A stretch of 64,000 bases of DNA from Sciscionella sediminilitoris (GTDB lineage: Bacteria; Actinomycetota; Actinomycetes; Mycobacteriales; Pseudonocardiaceae): contig NZ_JALM01000013.1 of assembly GCF_000737195.2 (NCBI RefSeq), forward strand, positions 62,001-126,000, written 5' to 3'. The notes under the pieces were generated by a model. The model was given only the letters and a program-made list of their open reading frames with translations, was not told where the DNA came from and made no database searches. Position numbers and translations under genes: made by a program. Of this stretch, positions 44,041-50,882 are shown piece by piece. How positions within the stretch are numbered: position 1 is the first letter of the stretch; every line of letters starts with the position of its first letter.

Positions 44041-45189
44041 TCACCGTCGCCGGTAGCGGGCGGCGGCGCGCGCGTAGGCCTCGCGGTGCTGCGCGGCCGT
44101 CGTCGCCCAGGAGAACTCCTTGGCTCTGCGCTGCGCGGCCGCACCGAGCTGGGCACGCTGCGAGGGATCGTCGAGCAGCTCGTCCAGTCCGGCCGCGATG
44201 TCCCCGGCGCCCACTCCCCGGTAGTGCACCGCGTCCCCGCCGACCTCGCCGATCGCCAGCCGGTCGGTGGTGAGCACGCAGCCGCCGCAGCTCATCGCCT
44301 CGAGCACGGGAAGACCGAAGCCCTCCCCGAAACTCGGATAGGCCACGATGCCCGCCCCGCCGAGGAATCCGGAGAGCAGATCCAGTGGCAGATATCCGGC
44401 GCGCAGCACCCGCAACCGCCGCGGCACCGAGGCCAGCGCCCGCTCGACCTGTCCGTCCCAGCCGGGCTGCCCGGCGAGCACCAGCACCGGCGGTTCCGCG
44501 CGGTGCGCGCTCGCCTCGGTGAATCCGCGGATGAGCGCGGGCACGTTCTTGCGTGGTTCCAGCGCGCCGAGGAACGCGATGAACTCGGCGTCCCCGAGAT
44601 CGAGCAGCGCGCGGACCTCGGCGACCTCCTCCGGGGACGGCGGATGGAAGGTCGCGGTGTCCACCCCGTGCGGGCTCACCCGCAACATTCCCCGGTCCGC
44701 CCCGGCGACCTGGACCAGCTCGTTCGCCGTCGCCTCCGAGGGCACCACGCACAGTTCGGCGGCGGCCAGTGAACGGCGGGTCCAGGTGCGGAAGAACATC
44801 GCCTTGACCGTGGAGTGCATCGCGGCGCCGGTGAAGAAGGTCGCGTCGTGGATGGTCACCACCGAGGCGGCCTGTTTGGCCAGCGGCATCGTGTAGTGCG
44901 GGGAGTGCAGCACATCCGCGCCGAGCGAGCGCACCAGCCTGGGCAGCTGCACCTGCTCCCACACCAGGCGGGCGGTACGGGTGGCGACCGACTCGGCCGC
45001 GGTGACCACCTCGGCGTGCGGGGCGAGTCCGGCGTAGAGCTCGGTGTCCCGCGGCTGGCAGACGACGGCGAGCCGGGCACCGTCCGCGTCCAGGGCGGCG
45101 ACGAGGGAGTCCACATAACGGCCGACGCCACCTCGATCAGCGGGGACCGCGGTGGCGTCGATGAGCACACGTGGATCTGACACCGTCAC
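44041..45189 (-). CDS. GT4 family glycosyltransferase
   Basis: A 382-residue GT-B retaining glycosyltransferase. RGGVGRYVDSLVAAL is the N-terminal glycine loop, LHSPHYTMPL and IHDATFF line the acceptor cleft, LGALEPRKNVPALIRGF begins the donor domain, and YPSFGEGFGLPVLEAMSCGGCVLT is the E-x7-E nucleotide-sugar motif. Mannose or another NDP-sugar is a plausible donor. Upstream of wbbL on the same strand, 43 nt away. Acceptor probably a cell-surface polysaccharide. Confidence 0.87.
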   Translation of the reverse strand: MTVSDPRVLIDATAVPADRGGVGRYVDSLVAALDADGARLAVVCQPRDTELYAGLAPHAEVVTAAESVATRTARLVWEQVQLPRLVRSLGADVLHSPHYTMPLAKQAASVVTIHDATFFTGAAMHSTVKAMFFRTWTRRSLAAAELCVVPSEATANELVQVAGADRGMLRVSPHGVDTATFHPPSPEEVAEVRALLDLGDAEFIAFLGALEPRKNVPALIRGFTEASAHRAEPPVLVLAGQPGWDGQVERALASVPRRLRVLRAGYLPLDLLSGFLGGAGIVAYPSFGEGFGLPVLEAMSCGGCVLTTDRLAIGEVGGDAVHYRGVGAGDIAAGLDELLDDPSQRAQLGAAAQRRAKEFSWATTAAQHREAYARAAARYRRR

Positions 45190-45244: not shown

Positions 45245-46357
45245 TCACCCCGGGCACCGAACGTGATGCGCCTCCAGATGCGCGGCCCACACCCGCGCCG
45301 CGGAATCCGCCCAGGTGAACGCCTTCGCGCGGGCCTTGGCCGCGGTGACCCGTGCCGCGGTGGCCGCCGTGTTCTCGAACACATCGCGTAGTACGGCGGC
45401 CAGGGCGTGGGCGTCGCCGACCGGGAAACCGAGCCCGGTGCCGTCCGCGAGCTCGACGAGGGCGGGCGCGTTCGAGTGCACCACGGGGACCCCGGCGGCC
45501 ATCGCCTCGAGCACCGGGAGACCGAAGCCCTCCGAACGGCTCGGCGCCACCAGGGCCGCGGCCCGGTGCAGCACGGTGGCCAGTTCGGCATCGGTGACCG
45601 CGCCGAGCTCCAGCGGAGCGGGTACCCCGAGTCCGGCGGCGAGCCGGTCCGGTTCGACCTGCCCCCAGCCGCGCGGCCCGGCGAGCACCAGCGGCAGCGC
45701 GGGCGCGCCCGGCTCGGCGAGCGCGCGCAGCAGCACCTCGACGCCCTTGCGCGGTTCCACGGTGCCGATCATCAGCAGGTACTCGGGCGGCAGCCGCAAC
45801 CGCGCCGCGATGGCCGCCGCGTCCCCGGGTGGCTGCGCGAGCGCCGCGGTCCTGCCGTGCCCGACCACGGTCAGCGGTGTGCCGCCGATCCGCGGGCCCA
45901 GCTGCGCGCCGACCGCGGCGGTGGGCACCAGGATCGTGTCCGCCGCGCGCGCTGCCTGTGCGATCGCCTTCCGGTGCCAGCGCGCACCGCGCGGGGTCAG
46001 CGTCTCCGGATGGGTGAACGGGACGGCATCGTGCACCGTCACCACCAGCCCCTTGCCGTGCCGCGCGGGCGGGGCGAGCGGGGTGGGGGCGTGCACCGAA
46101 TCGCCGCCCGGCCACAGCGGGATCCGCCGCTCCCAGGCCGCGATCAGGGCCCGGCGGGGCAAGGCGAGCACGCTCGGGCCCGCGACCCCCTCGATCGCGG
46201 CCACCGTGGGATCCGCGCAGCGCGGCACCACCGAGCGCACCGTCCAGCCGGGTGGTGCCGTCGCGGCCAGCGCCGCGCCGAGCTCGCGCGTGTAGCGCCC
46301 GGTGCCGCCGGGGACCGGGGCGAGCAGCTGATCGGCAAGCAGGACGAGCTCAGGCAC
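45245..46357 (-). CDS. GT4 family glycosyltransferase
   Basis: A 370-residue GT-B glycosyltransferase similar in plan to its downstream neighbour: PVPGGTGRYTRELGAAL loop, VVTVHDAVPFTHPE, MIGTVEPRKGVEVLLRAL, and APSRSEGFGLPVLEAMAAGVPVVHS (E-x7-E). The two are likely paralogues adding successive residues. GTG 46357 is only 11 nt from the divergent GT2 start. TAGGGT lies six bases upstream of the GTG, a spacing expected for a leaderless transcript. Confidence 0.86.
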   Translation of the reverse strand: MPELVLLADQLLAPVPGGTGRYTRELGAALAATAPPGWTVRSVVPRCADPTVAAIEGVAGPSVLALPRRALIAAWERRIPLWPGGDSVHAPTPLAPPARHGKGLVVTVHDAVPFTHPETLTPRGARWHRKAIAQAARAADTILVPTAAVGAQLGPRIGGTPLTVVGHGRTAALAQPPGDAAAIAARLRLPPEYLLMIGTVEPRKGVEVLLRALAEPGAPALPLVLAGPRGWGQVEPDRLAAGLGVPAPLELGAVTDAELATVLHRAAALVAPSRSEGFGLPVLEAMAAGVPVVHSNAPALVELADGTGLGFPVGDAHALAAVLRDVFENTAATAARVTAAKARAKAFTWADSAARVWAAHLEAHHVRCPG

Positions 46358-46368
46358 AATGGCACCCT

Positions 46369-47307
46369 ATGCGGACCCGGACGACCGTGGTGGTGGTGAC
46401 CTGGCGCGGGCGCGAGCACGTCCGGGACTGCCTCGCCGCCCTCGCCGCCCAGGAACGTCCACATCGGACGCTCGTGGTGGACAACGCCTCGGACGACGGC
46501 ACCGCGGAACTGCTGGCCGGGCACGAGGTACTGCGGCTGCCGGTGAACACCGGCTACGCGGGCGGGATCGCCGCCGCGCTCGGGCAGGTGCGCACCGAAT
46601 ACCTCGCCTGGCTCAACGACGACGCCGCCCCCGAACCGGGCTGGCTCGCCGCGCTCGAGGACGAGCTGGACGCCCATCCCGATGCCGCCGCGGTCTCCTC
46701 GGTGCTCGTGGACGCCGGGGGAGCGGTCACCTCGGCGGGCACGGCGCTGGACCGGGACGGGTACGGGCTGGACCTCACCGGGGACGCGGAGCCGTTCGGC
46801 TTCTGCGGTGGTGCGGTGCTGCTGCGCACCGGGGCACTGCACGCGGTCGGCGGGGTGCCCGCGGAGTTCTTCTGCTACTACGAGGACACCGACACGGCGT
46901 GGCGGCTGCGTCTTGCCGGGTACGGGATCCGGCACGCGAACGAGGCCCGCGCCCGGCACCGGCACGGCGCCTCGACCCGGCCCGGTTCCTGGCGGTTCCA
47001 CCACTGGAACGAGCGCAACCGGCTGTTCATGCTCGCCCGGTGCGCCCCGGCCACGGTCGTGGGCGCCCAGCTGGCGAAGTTCGCCCTGCTGGCGCTCAAA
47101 CCCGGGCTCCCGGCGACCCCGAACTTCGCGCCGCGGCTGCGGCTGCGGGTGCTCGGGGAACTACTGCTCGCAGCGCCGCGGCTGCTCGCCGAGCGCAGGG
47201 CGGTCGGCCGGATCGCGCGCCGCGGGCGGGCCCGGGTGTGGCGCGCGGCGAGCTCCGGTGCTGCGGCTAGGATCGGCGCGGACGCCCGAGGGGATCGCAT
47301 TGACTGA
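46369..47307 (+). CDS. GT2 family glycosyltransferase
   Basis: A 312-residue GT-A glycosyltransferase: VVVVTWRGREHVRDCLAAL, VVDNASDDGTAELL, WLNDDAAPEPGWL (metal DD), GGAVLLRTGALHAVGG, FFCYYEDTDTAWRLRLAGY. It resembles rhamnosyl/galactofuranosyl transferases of cell-wall loci. A C-terminal basic amphipathic stretch (LLAERRAVGRIARRGRARVWR) may hold it on the membrane. Its end overlaps the TTG start of the next gene by 8 bp. Confidence 0.86.
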   Translation: MRTRTTVVVVTWRGREHVRDCLAALAAQERPHRTLVVDNASDDGTAELLAGHEVLRLPVNTGYAGGIAAALGQVRTEYLAWLNDDAAPEPGWLAALEDELDAHPDAAAVSSVLVDAGGAVTSAGTALDRDGYGLDLTGDAEPFGFCGGAVLLRTGALHAVGGVPAEFFCYYEDTDTAWRLRLAGYGIRHANEARARHRHGASTRPGSWRFHHWNERNRLFMLARCAPATVVGAQLAKFALLALKPGLPATPNFAPRLRLRVLGELLLAAPRLLAERRAVGRIARRGRARVWRAASSGAAARIGADARGDRID

Positions 47308-49810
47308 CGCTGTACTGCCACTGGTCTCGGTTGTCGTGGTGAACTATCGCGGCGCCGAGCACACCATCACGTGTCTGCGCGCGCTCGCCGCCGAGCTGGA
47401 CTACCCGGCCGAGCGGCTCGAGCTGATCTGCGTGGACAACGCTTCCGGGGACGGCAGTGCGGAACGGATCCGCGCGGCGCTCGGCGAGCGGGCCACGCTC
47501 ATCGAGTCCCCGCGGAACACCGGGTTCGCCGGTGGCTGCAATCTCGGCGCGCGGCACGCGAGGGGTTCGGTGCTCGCTTTCCTCAACTCCGATGCCCGCC
47601 CGCATCCGCGCTGGGTCAGCGCAGCGGTCGAGGTGCTCGCCAGCCAGCCGGGGATCGGTGCGGTGGCGAGCAAGGTGCTGGACTGGGACGGCGAGCGGGT
47701 GGACTTCACCGACGCCGGGCTCACCTGGTTCGGCATGGGGTACTCGCACGGCGGCGGTCAGCCGGACGCCCCGGAACGGGACACCGCGCGCGATGTGCTG
47801 TTCGGCACCGGGGCGGCGATGTTCGTGCGCGCGGGACTGTTCGCCGAGCTCGAGGGCTTCGACGAGCGGTTCTTCATGTTCTACGAGGACGTGGATCTGG
47901 GCTGGCGGCTGAACAATCGCGGCTGGCGGTTCCGCTTCGAACCCGGATCGGTCGCCTATCACCGGCACCACGCCGCGGTCTCCGATGTGGACGGCAAGGA
48001 CTCCGCGCGGGAGCTGTACCTGCTCGAGCGCAACGCCCTGTGCGCGCTGTACAAGAACCTCGAGGACGAGACGCTGGCCAGGGTGCTGCCCGCCGCACTC
48101 GCGCTCGCGGTGCGCAGGGCGACCGCGCGCGGTGACCTCGATGCCACGCAGCTGGAGATGAACCGGGCGGGCGAGGAAGCCCCGCTGCTCTCGGTACCGC
48201 GCCCCACGATGGCCGGGGTGTTCGCCATCGACCAGTTCGTGGAACTGCTGCCGCACCTGCGCGAGTCCCGCGAACTCGAGCAGCGCGAGCGCACCCGCAC
48301 CGATGCCGACCTCGTCACCCTGATGCGCAAGGCGCTGGAGCCGGCCTATCCCTTGCCGCGCTACCTCGCCGCGCACGACATTCTCACCGAGGTCTTCGGG
48401 ATCGGCGAGGTGTTCGGCCGCCCGCGCCGGATCGCGGTGCTCACCGGGGACGCGGTCGCCGAGCGGATGGCCGGTCCCGCGATCCGGGCCTGGCACACCG
48501 CGGAGGTCCTGGCGGTCGAGCACACGGTCCGGCTGGTCTCGGTGAACCCGAACAACGCGCCCCCGGACGCGAGCTTCGAGGTGCACGCGTGCACGCCGAA
48601 GGAACTGCACGCGCACGTGGACTGGGCGGATGTGGTGGTGCTGCAGGGGCACACCCTGCAGATGGTGCCCGAGCTCGCGCGGATGGACTCCCGCACGATC
48701 CTGGTCTGCGATGTCTACGATCCGATGCACCTGGAACTGCTCGAACAGAGCAAGCAGGCCCCGGAGGCGCAGCGCGGCGCGGATGTGGCCGGGGTGACCG
48801 AGGTGCTCAACACCCAGTTGCGCCGCGGGGATTTCTTCCTCTGCGCCTCGGAACGGCAGCGGCATTTCTGGCTGGGGCATCTCGCCGCGCTCGGCCGGAT
48901 CGGCCCGGGGATCTACGACACCGATCCGACGATGCGCTCGCTGATCGCGGAGGTCCCGTTCGGGCTGCCCGCCGCGCAGCCACACCGGAACGGCCCGGGA
49001 ATCCGGGACGCCTTTCCCGCGATCGGGGAGCGGGACAAGGTGATCCTGTGGGCGGGCGGGGTCTACTCCTGGTTCGATCCGCTCACCCTGATCCGGGCGG
49101 TGGACCGGTTGCGCGCCGAGCACCCCGATGTGCGGCTGGTGTTCCTCGGCATGCGCCACCCCAATCCGGATGTCCCGGACATGGAGATCGCGGTGCGCAC
49201 CAGGCAGCTTGCCGGTTCGCTCGGCCTCACCGGGAAACACGTCTTCTTCAACGAGGGCTGGGTGCCCTACACCGAACGGCAGAACTGGCTGCTCGACGCG
49301 GATGCCGGGGTCACGACGCATTTCCAGCACGTGGAAACCGAATTCGCGTTCCGCACCAGGGTGCTCGACTACCTGTGGTCCGGGCTGCCGATCGTGACCA
49401 CCGACGGGGATTCCTTCGCCGACCTGGTCCGCGCCGAGCGCCTGGGTTCGGTGGTTCCCGCCGAGGACGCCGAGGCGCTCGCGGCGGCACTGGCCTCGGT
49501 GCTCTATGACGAATCCTTCGCGCAGGACTGCGTGCACAACATCGCCGCCGTCCGGGAACGGTTCACCTGGGAGCACGCCCTCGCCCCGCTGCTGGCGTTC
49601 TGCCGCAACCCGCGACCGGCCGCGGACCGGCTCGCCGGGGCGGCACCGCTGACCGAGCCCGCCCCGCTGACCCTCGCGCAGGGCGTGCTCCGGGACATCG
49701 GCCTGGTGCGCGAATACCTTGCCGCGGGCGGGGTGCGCGAGCTCGGCAAGCGGGCCGGTGGCCGGGTACGCAAACTCGCCTCGAACGTTCGGAGCCGCCG
49801 TGGCAGCTGA
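47300..49810 (+). CDS. Bifunctional glycosyltransferase: N-terminal GT2 fused to C-terminal GT4-like domain
   Basis: An 836-residue fusion. Residues ~9-280 are a complete GT2 (VSVVVVNYRGAEHTITCL, VDNASGDGSAERI, FLNSDARPHPRWV, FFMFYEDVDLGWRLNNRGW). A ~90-residue helical linker follows. Residues ~375-780 are a GT-B domain (VLTGDAVAERMAGPAIRAW, ILWAGGVYSWFDPLTLIRAV, HFQHVETEFAFRTRVLDYLWSGLPIVTT). Fusions suggest polymerisation of a two-sugar repeat. TTG 47300 is the only start before the GT2 fold and has GAGGGG upstream; the stop overlaps the next GT by 11 bp. Confidence 0.86.
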   Translation: MTDAVLPLVSVVVVNYRGAEHTITCLRALAAELDYPAERLELICVDNASGDGSAERIRAALGERATLIESPRNTGFAGGCNLGARHARGSVLAFLNSDARPHPRWVSAAVEVLASQPGIGAVASKVLDWDGERVDFTDAGLTWFGMGYSHGGGQPDAPERDTARDVLFGTGAAMFVRAGLFAELEGFDERFFMFYEDVDLGWRLNNRGWRFRFEPGSVAYHRHHAAVSDVDGKDSARELYLLERNALCALYKNLEDETLARVLPAALALAVRRATARGDLDATQLEMNRAGEEAPLLSVPRPTMAGVFAIDQFVELLPHLRESRELEQRERTRTDADLVTLMRKALEPAYPLPRYLAAHDILTEVFGIGEVFGRPRRIAVLTGDAVAERMAGPAIRAWHTAEVLAVEHTVRLVSVNPNNAPPDASFEVHACTPKELHAHVDWADVVVLQGHTLQMVPELARMDSRTILVCDVYDPMHLELLEQSKQAPEAQRGADVAGVTEVLNTQLRRGDFFLCASERQRHFWLGHLAALGRIGPGIYDTDPTMRSLIAEVPFGLPAAQPHRNGPGIRDAFPAIGERDKVILWAGGVYSWFDPLTLIRAVDRLRAEHPDVRLVFLGMRHPNPDVPDMEIAVRTRQLAGSLGLTGKHVFFNEGWVPYTERQNWLLDADAGVTTHFQHVETEFAFRTRVLDYLWSGLPIVTTDGDSFADLVRAERLGSVVPAEDAEALAAALASVLYDESFAQDCVHNIAAVRERFTWEHALAPLLAFCRNPRPAADRLAGAAPLTEPAPLTLAQGVLRDIGLVREYLAAGGVRELGKRAGGRVRKLASNVRSRRGS

Positions 49811-50882
49811 TCGCGTCCGGGTCCTGCTCGACGGCACCCCGTTGCTCGGCAACCGCACCGGTGTCGGGCACTACACGGCGGCGCTGGCCGAGGAACTGGC
49901 CTCGCGCTCGGATGTCCGGGTGCGCGCGGTCGCGTTCACCCTGCGCGGCTGGCGCAGGCTGCGTTCGGCGCTGCCGCACGAGGTCACCGCGCGCGGGATG
50001 CCGGTCTCGGCGCGGTTGCTGCGCCGCTGCTGGGAACGCGGGCGGATGCCACCGATCGAGTTGTTCGCCGGGCCGACCGATGTGGTGCACGGGACCAATT
50101 TCGTGCTGCCTCGCTCGCTGGCCGCCGGTGGTGTGCTCACCGTGCACGATCTCGCCTTCCTCGACCATCCCGAGGATCTGCCGCCCGCGGACTCCCGGCT
50201 GCCCGCGCTCGTGCGCAAGGGCGCGGAACTGGCCGCGGTGGTGTGCACCCCGACGCAGGCGGTCGCCGAGCAGGTCGTGGACCGGCTCGGGGTGCCCGTG
50301 GAACGGATCCGGGTGACCCCGCTCGGCGTGGACCCGGCCTGGTTCGCCGCGCGCCCGCCGACCGAGGTGCTGCGTGGCAAGCTCGCGCTGCCCGCCGAGT
50401 ATCTGCTGCACGTCGGGGATCACGGGCCACGCAAGGGAATCGAGCACCTGATCGCCGCGCACGCCGCACGTCCCGAGCTGCCCCCGCTGGTGCTCGCCGG
50501 TCCGCACCGCGCGGGTACCGAGGGCCGGGTACTGCGCACCGGGTATCTGTCCGATGTGGACCTGCGCAGTGTGGTCGCCGGTGCCGCGGCGCTGGTGCTT
50601 CCCTCCCGTGACGAGGGGTTCGGCCTTCCCGTACTGGAAGCACTGGCCTGCAATGTCCCCGTGGTGTGCACCGATGTGCCCGCGCTGCGCGAGGTCGCGG
50701 GCGGGCACGCCACCCTGGTGCCCTACGGCGAACCGGAAGCGCTCGGCGCGGCGCTCGCCGAGGTACTGGACGCCGAACCGGAACCGGGGACCTGGATGGC
50801 CCGGCGCAACCACGCGGCCGGGTTCACCTGGCGCCGGTGTGCCGAGGAGACGGTCGCCGCGTACCGGCAGGCCGCAGGATGA
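49800..50882 (+). CDS. GT4 family glycosyltransferase
   Basis: A 360-residue GT-B enzyme: LLDGTPLLGNRTGVGHYTAALAEEL, VVHGTNFVLPRS, TVHDLAFLDHPEDLP, LHVGDHGPRKGIEHLI and LPSRDEGFGLPVLEALACNVPVVCT (E-x7-E). GTG 49800 overlaps the fusion gene's stop. It is the last gene of the plus-strand GT2/fusion/GT4 set; its 3' end overlaps the convergent acetyltransferase by 59 bp. Confidence 0.86.
   Translation: MAADRVRVLLDGTPLLGNRTGVGHYTAALAEELASRSDVRVRAVAFTLRGWRRLRSALPHEVTARGMPVSARLLRRCWERGRMPPIELFAGPTDVVHGTNFVLPRSLAAGGVLTVHDLAFLDHPEDLPPADSRLPALVRKGAELAAVVCTPTQAVAEQVVDRLGVPVERIRVTPLGVDPAWFAARPPTEVLRGKLALPAEYLLHVGDHGPRKGIEHLIAAHAARPELPPLVLAGPHRAGTEGRVLRTGYLSDVDLRSVVAGAAALVLPSRDEGFGLPVLEALACNVPVVCTDVPALREVAGGHATLVPYGEPEALGAALAEVLDAEPEPGTWMARRNHAAGFTWRRCAEETVAAYRQAAG

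Follow-up and report, generated by a model that had tools for sequence, protein, structure and literature searches.

A 64,000-nucleotide stretch of the Sciscionella sediminilitoris genome (contig NZ_JALM01000013.1, positions 62,001 to 126,000 of the forward strand; 'the window' below) carries a gene that joins two glycosyltransferase (GT) modules, one GT2 and one GT4-like, in one polypeptide. This fusion is a real, conserved dual-module enzyme. It is most likely an enzyme of wall-glycan assembly; its architecture is known in kind, and what is unusual is its locus and the donor site of its GT-B half. Its parts lie in the window as follows:

47300-49810 (+): GT2-GT4 fusion, 836 amino acids, TTG start; from the open reading frame (ORF), Pfam and the AlphaFold2 model
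47324-47977 (+): GT-A (GT2) module, residues 9-226, with DN at 46-47, NxD at 96-98, EDxD at 196-199 and HxH at 221-223
47987-48412 (+): helical connector, residues 230-371; from the secondary structure of the AlphaFold2 model
48413-49633 (+): GT-B (GT4-like) module, residues 372-778, with MAGPAIR at 390-396, WFDP at 591-594 and ETxFxFRTRxLDYLW at 679-693; from Pfam and the model

The frame is open from the TTG codon to a TGA at 49808-49810. We saw that Glycos_transf_2 (PF00535) matched residues 10-120 (E 5.4e-18; 65.9 bits, curated cut-off 23.3), Glyco_trans_1_4 (PF13692) residues 580-736 (E 2e-13; 51.2 bits, cut-off 27) and Glycos_transf_1 (PF00534) residues 574-747 (E 1.2e-11; 44.9 bits, cut-off 26.4). 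The AlphaFold2 model (43 rows; mean predicted local distance difference test score 82, predicted template modelling score 0.80) resolves into GT-A and GT-B modules joined by a helical connector; in structural alignments its residues ~373-775 match the GT-B enzymes HepE, BshA and PimA (Z 30-32), and residues ~3-366 the GT-A enzyme ppGalNAc-T2 (Z 25). One half therefore belongs to GT2 by its profile and by a GT-A fold with DxD-type and acidic catalytic motifs, the other to GT4 by its profile and GT-B fold, and the claim of the first-pass annotation that complete modules of both kinds share a TTG-started polypeptide was borne out. The start codon nearest the expected place in fusions of 39 other genera was GTG in 28, TTG in 9 and ATG in 2; the TTG is thus unremarkable.

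The fusion is accompanied by the following genes:

46369-47307 (+): GT2b, a GT2 gene, 312 amino acids, 8-base overlap with the fusion
49800-50882 (+): GT4c, a GT4 gene, 360 amino acids, GTG start, canonical RK and EX7E motifs, 11-base overlap with the fusion
45245-46357 (-): GT4b, a GT4 gene, 370 amino acids, divergent, its start 11 bases from that of GT2b
44041-45189 (-): GT4a, a GT4 gene, 382 amino acids
43122-43997 (-): WbbL, a GT2 gene, assigned from synteny and a single strong match in each genome
41434-42516 (-): manB, mannose-1-phosphate guanylyltransferase (NF052502, 597 bits, cut-off 440)

The three nearby GT4 enzymes, the GDP-mannose synthesis gene (above its NF052502 cut-off) and the overlaps of the fusion with GT genes on both sides, all named earlier, are in place. 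The downstream overlap with GT4c was kept in 33 of the 39 loci of other genera; the upstream one occurred in only 2 of 38 (L052 has no GT2b), and we rejected it as a conserved trait.

A relative of the fusion, scored at E<=1e-50, was found in 126 of 150 genomes of the family Pseudonocardiaceae (its own included) and in 40 of 46 genera, with one match each. We fetched the locus from one genome for each of 39 other genera. In these relatives wbbL, GT4a and GT4b lie on one strand and GT2b, the fusion and GT4c on the other, and all six genes were within the fetched stretch in 37 of the 39. Taken singly, wbbL, GT4a, GT4b and GT2b were seen in 38 each and GT4c in 39, manB in 28 (once on the other strand, L042), rmlD in 31, rmlB in 28 and a LytR-CpsA-Psr (LCP) gene in 27. 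The two incomplete sets were L052, where GT2b is missing, and L028, where GT2b and the fusion are 7.8 kb apart and wbbL, GT4a and GT4b fall beyond the fetched stretch. The best 80 of 530 relatives, named loci whose titles give genera that we take to be Pseudonocardiaceae, or metagenome-assembled genomes of Pseudonocardiales, contained wbbL in 76, GT4a and GT4b in 77 each, GT2b in 79, GT4c in all 80, manB in 63, rmlD in 75, rmlB in 74 and LCP in 71. Among these best 80, wbbL was missed at L113, L115 and L139, which have <3 kb of upstream sequence, and at L144, which has 10 kb and holds no wbbL, GT4a, GT4b, GT2b or rmlD. The first-pass annotation had proposed to look for the fusion next to wbbL across relatives and to give up its view if the cluster proved random there; given the 126 genomes and the six-gene set in 37 of 39 genera, the cluster is anything but random.

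Some features of these loci could be noted separately. One in-frame TAG or TGA interrupts the fusion match in 7 of the 126 rows: G027, G065, G092, G113, G146 (genus g28), G109 and G111. In five genera (L027, L034, L047, L052 and L064) small genes have been inserted into the GT operon, with GT2b, or the site it would occupy, on one side and the fusion on the other; those of L047 match a WXG100-like domain, YbaB and DUF6346. In the window GT4b and GT2b stand head to head (46357-46369), and the 11 bases between their starts leave little room for promoters; with starts picked by nearness to the expected place, this gap is <=30 bases in 18 of 37 loci of other genera and reaches 752.

In most relatives the five GT genes sit between wbbL and rmlD-rmlB-LCP: RmlD, RmlB and an LCP protein adjoin GT4c, and FbiB and an AlkA-like gene adjoin manB. 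Pfam confirmed RmlD, LCP and FbiB and was consistent with RmlB; the AlkA-like label was assigned by eye to a gene with no Pfam match. In Mycobacterium tuberculosis lcp1, whose product ligates arabinogalactan to peptidoglycan, adjoins rmlD and wbbL1 (PMC4981717, as far as its excerpt goes). Judged by gene order, the locus of most relatives is that mycobacterial locus with a five-gene insert. The occurrence of wbbL with rmlD and LCP in one locus holds for most relatives; in the window genome these two genes are on contig C5.

We tentatively prefer a reading that could well be wrong: that the fusion is the dual-module, chain-extending GT of a five-gene cassette (GT4a, GT4b, GT2b, fusion and GT4c) usually located inside the arabinogalactan-linker locus of most Pseudonocardiaceae. 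A role of the cluster in polysaccharide assembly is very likely; the fusion probably assembles a portion of a hitherto undescribed wall sugar chain, and it most likely extends a lipid-linked wall glycan of the rhamnose/mannose kind. Judged from titles and abstract openings, with few subscription papers covered, our literature searches turned up no paper describing this cassette.

The cassette is repeatedly absent. We read the locus in 18 of the 24 fusion-lacking family genomes, and all had wbbL with all or part of fbiB, manB, rmlD, rmlB and LCP, some or all cassette genes being gone. No cassette gene was present in the stretch in 13 of the 18 (L156-L159, L161, L163, L165-L169, L172 and L173); L156 and L157 hold wbbL, rmlD, rmlB and LCP together, and each of the other 11 lacks at least one of rmlD, rmlB and LCP there. 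Partial cassettes consist of GT4b and GT4c only (L162, L164 and L170) or of GT4c only (L160); L171 is a contig fragment ending inside GT4b. A single wbbL match at E<=1e-30 was found in 21 of 22 genomes searched, 20 of which lack the fusion. The locus tree was built from wbbL, manB and the AlkA-like gene in 57 rows, 9 of them less than half filled, and shows five changes of the cassette; G011 (74% complete, its contig ending in GT4b) was given no cassette label there.

The location of the cassette suggests another explanation as well: that it decorates or branches the galactan or arabinogalactan, the fusion adding a two-sugar side chain. This has some weight, though we would not expect it to be the case. 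Besides the position inside the linker locus in most relatives, GlfT2_N matches in 139 of 150 family genomes (absent in 11) speak for it, as does the presence in the window genome of galactan genes and a galactan-type exporter: contig C36 carries Wzm (43% identity to that of G043), Wzt (75%), a GlfT1-like gene, glf and two GlfT2, and the Wzm-Wzt pair of G043 itself is of the galactan type, with NF050109 and NF050108 above their cut-offs. On the other hand, seven genomes keep the fusion with no GlfT2_N or Emb match (G001, G021, G045, G047, G059, G087 and G104), although three of them (G001, G047 and G059) retain Wzm, Wzt, GlfT1-like and glf; also, the genes checked at the distant loci L176, L208 and L211 included none for galactan. 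We set aside the idea that these three genomes are galactan-free, as the exporter, GlfT1-like and glf are kept and, in G001 and G047, a pair of unmatched ORFs stands at the GlfT2 place, so that galactan may still be made in these two. The ORFs (L237:12543-14942 and L238:4853-7156) are related, 90% identical, ~770-800 amino acids long and have no Pfam match.

Emb matches are absent in the window genome and in 49 of the 150 family genomes in all. Its two GlfT2 paralogues, glf and galactan-type exporter (C36, L242), observed with no Emb match, suggest that this genome may make galactan with no Emb-made arabinan. In raw counts, with kinship ignored, Emb is present in 22 of 24 fusion-lacking and 79 of 126 fusion-bearing family genomes. 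G118 is without both fusion and Emb; G122 (L146), which was taken as Lentzea californiensis, has no Emb match.

Equally, the cassette product could be a glycolipid, a glycoprotein or a free capsule that shares only the nucleotide-sugar supply with the linker locus. We consider this improbable. The cassette has no exporter or ligase inside it, and in the window genome it lies apart from rmlD-rmlB-LCP, both of which fit such a product; yet wbbL accompanies it in 38 of the 39 other genera, and in 27 of them an LCP gene lies within the fetched stretch. Near the window cluster no exporter, linked Wzm-Wzt included, was seen among the genes checked, the whole window not having been scanned for exporters; a linked pair accompanies the fusion at L176 and L208, and Wzt at L211. 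The Wzm of L176 as a query matched 11 of 19 genomes at E<=1e-6 and not the window genome; we discarded this search as too insensitive, since the family's own Wzm did match the window genome. The earlier statement that the polysaccharide is undefined is only partly retained: the linker locus in most relatives and the galactan-type exporter elsewhere in the window genome make it less so, and we still infer the product.

The two halves of the fusion differ in their donor sites. Judged by the alignment, the GT2 half keeps its motifs: D46-N47, N96-x-D98, E196-D197-x-D199 and H221 are in the window protein, and N96, D98, E196, D197 and D199 are each present in 32 rows, all the fused rows aligned, with one further row differing at 196-199. 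An NxD motif also marks the second TDP-rhamnose (rhamnosyl) module of Klebsiella O7 ORF6 (PMC11231755, excerpt). The GT4 half carries SWF-D and TEFAFRTRVLD where GT4a, GT4b and GT4c have PRK and EGFGLPVLE. The EX7E motif and an Arg/Lys pair are the donor-site motifs of GT4 enzymes; here Arg-Lys is replaced by Trp591-Phe592, the first Glu by Phe, Tyr or Leu and the second by Asp690, and we therefore filed this half as GT4-like GT-B, not as a canonical GT4. The first-pass annotation would have been undone by a loss of donor-binding residues in either domain: the GT2 half has kept them, and the GT4 half lacks the canonical ones and has an invariant set in their place. Across the phylum, W591, D593, E679, R685, T686, R687, D690 and W693 showed no variation (48 of 48 sequences). 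This invariance, along with the occurrence of the GT4 half alone, suggests that the catalytic site is built differently and has not decayed. With the GT4 half searched as a single sequence, PimA (2gej, 4n9w) was the only PDB match (E 2e-4); a profile search also weakly matched 2r60. The replaced Arg/Lys and first Glu could instead indicate that the GT-B half is an inactive acceptor-binding or chain-length module, the protein being a single-function GT2; with W591, D593, E679, R685-T686-R687 and D690 invariant in 48 of 48, and the half also found on its own, we regard this as quite improbable.

The fusion is an old one. Outside the family 31 of 298 genomes of the order had matches; in 12 a single row spanned both halves (G233 with a stop), and in the others mostly the GT4 half alone was matched. 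In the phylum 57 of 296 genomes matched the profile and 37 of 296 did so at full length (own genome included); the fusion as a new architecture was rejected on this ground. In a tree built from 56 GT4 halves, 40 of them fused and 16 free-standing, four switches between the two states are required, and three or more of these fall on well-supported branches; the family fusions form one clade with full support, gain and loss being indistinguishable on this unrooted tree. At L183 and L184 fusion relatives are in long open frames (1202 and 1242 amino acids stop to stop), on a very long branch and with a free GT4 half adjoining.

From the order and phylum matches we selected 40 loci beyond the family and counted their neighbors by tblastn (E<=1e-15): RmlD 10, RmlB 12, wbbL-like 7, LCP 5, GT4a 5, GT4b 10, GT2b 14 and GT4c 13. 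Distant fusions lie beside rmlB-rmlD at L208, L211 and L212 and, within the order, at L174, L178 and L181. Domain scans covered selected genes at L176, L179, L204, L208 and L211. The gene order at L208 is rmlC-like, rmlB, DUF3048, rmlD, Wzm, Wzt with Wzt_C, pyruvyl transferase, GT4 and fusion; at L176 it is Wzm, Wzt with Wzt_C and fusion, followed by relatives of wbbL, GT4a, GT4b, GT2b and GT4c; L211 has rmlB, rmlD and Wzt (Wzt alone checked).

Whole-cell sugars of Lentzea atacamensis, which carries the cluster (L100, strain DSM 45479), are galactose, mannose and rhamnose in the excerpt of PMC7861442. Saccharopolyspora hirsuta VKM Ac-666 (L124) carries it too; both are soil-type actinomycetes. 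Five Saccharothrix strains are listed in the excerpt of PMC12983401, two with mannose and rhamnose, two with galactose and mannose and one with galactose and ribose. Such lists fit a rhamnose/mannose polymer and do not prove one; lipids could account for the mannose and the linker for the rhamnose.

Several observations weigh against a chain-extending role in the linker locus. In the window genome rmlD, rmlB and LCP are away from the cassette, on contig C5, and in 8 of the 39 genera the fetched stretch contains no rmlD. Canonical Arg/Lys and the leading Glu of EX7E are missing from the GT4 half. A Wzt_C protein was found in 0 of 150 family genomes (the controls, Synechococcus elongatus and Methanosarcina acetivorans, were positive), so the family has not retained the pairing with an exporter that some distant relatives show. 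The distant fusion at L204 sits among methylmalonyl-CoA mutase genes, hence the link of the fusion with polysaccharide genes is not universal. The rule 'cassette or arabinan, never both absent' was dropped (five independent pairs on the locus tree, median p 1). As listed in the Saccharothrix excerpt, 3 of 5 strains have no rhamnose and one has neither mannose nor rhamnose; these strains were not scored for the cassette.

WbbL of M. tuberculosis transfers rhamnose to lipid-diphosphate-linked N-acetylglucosamine (lipid-PP-GlcNAc). If the fusion extends a chain as we propose, WbbL of the window, recognized by synteny, would perform this same first step, and the single GTs of the cassette would then add an adaptor. 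The GT2 half of the fusion would act with inversion and add one sugar, in all likelihood alpha-L-rhamnose taken from dTDP-rhamnose; the GT-B half would add a second one, perhaps alpha-mannose from GDP-mannose, the two acting in turn and possibly polymerizing the chain. The alternating repeat suggested by the first-pass annotation is a conjecture. A galactan-type Wzm-Wzt would export the lipid-linked chain, and an LCP protein would ligate it to peptidoglycan. The window genome has manB, rmlB, rmlD, LCP and Wzm-Wzt.

One could speculate further that most Pseudonocardiaceae make an undescribed peptidoglycan-linked rhamnose/mannose polysaccharide on the linker, exporter and ligase of arabinogalactan, polymerized by a dual enzyme with a rewritten GT-B donor site, and that it is the main linker polymer where arabinan and GlfT2 are absent. 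We think this unlikely. If true, it would identify the genes behind a second wall polymer in genera from which well-known antibiotics come; the arabinogalactan linker would then serve another chain too, and a GT-B family whose donor site is rewritten would be added.

Downstream of the cluster the genes of the window appear unrelated: GNAT, a repetitive coiled-coil-like ORF, crotonyl-CoA carboxylase/reductase, SPW, TetR and amylase.

Among known systems, the mycobacterial arabinogalactan-linker locus (manB, wbbL1, rmlD and lcp1) shares with most relatives the joint presence of wbbL, rmlD and an LCP gene, with manB beside wbbL; it differs in that the relatives hold five extra GT genes between wbbL and rmlD, and the window genome has rmlD-rmlB-LCP on another contig. 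Of the NCBIfam entries, MftF, the mycofactocin GT2 (TIGR03965), fits the fusion best, the match covering the GT2 half; however, the 115.6 bits are far below the curated cut-off of 280, and the context differs. PimA, a GDP-mannose GT4 (2gej, 4n9w), shares the GT-B fold with the GT4 half (Z 30), but the canonical donor residues are replaced in the fusion. Broadly similar dual-module GTs polymerize ABC-transporter-dependent glycans; those of O-antigens (Klebsiella O12 and O7, Escherichia coli O9 WbdA) likewise have two GT modules per polypeptide (PMC11231755, excerpt). As in those systems, some distant relatives of the fusion stand beside Wzm and a Wzt with Wzt_C, whereas the family fusion combines GT2 with a GT-B module of rewritten donor site, in a Gram-positive wall locus and with no Wzt_C in the family.

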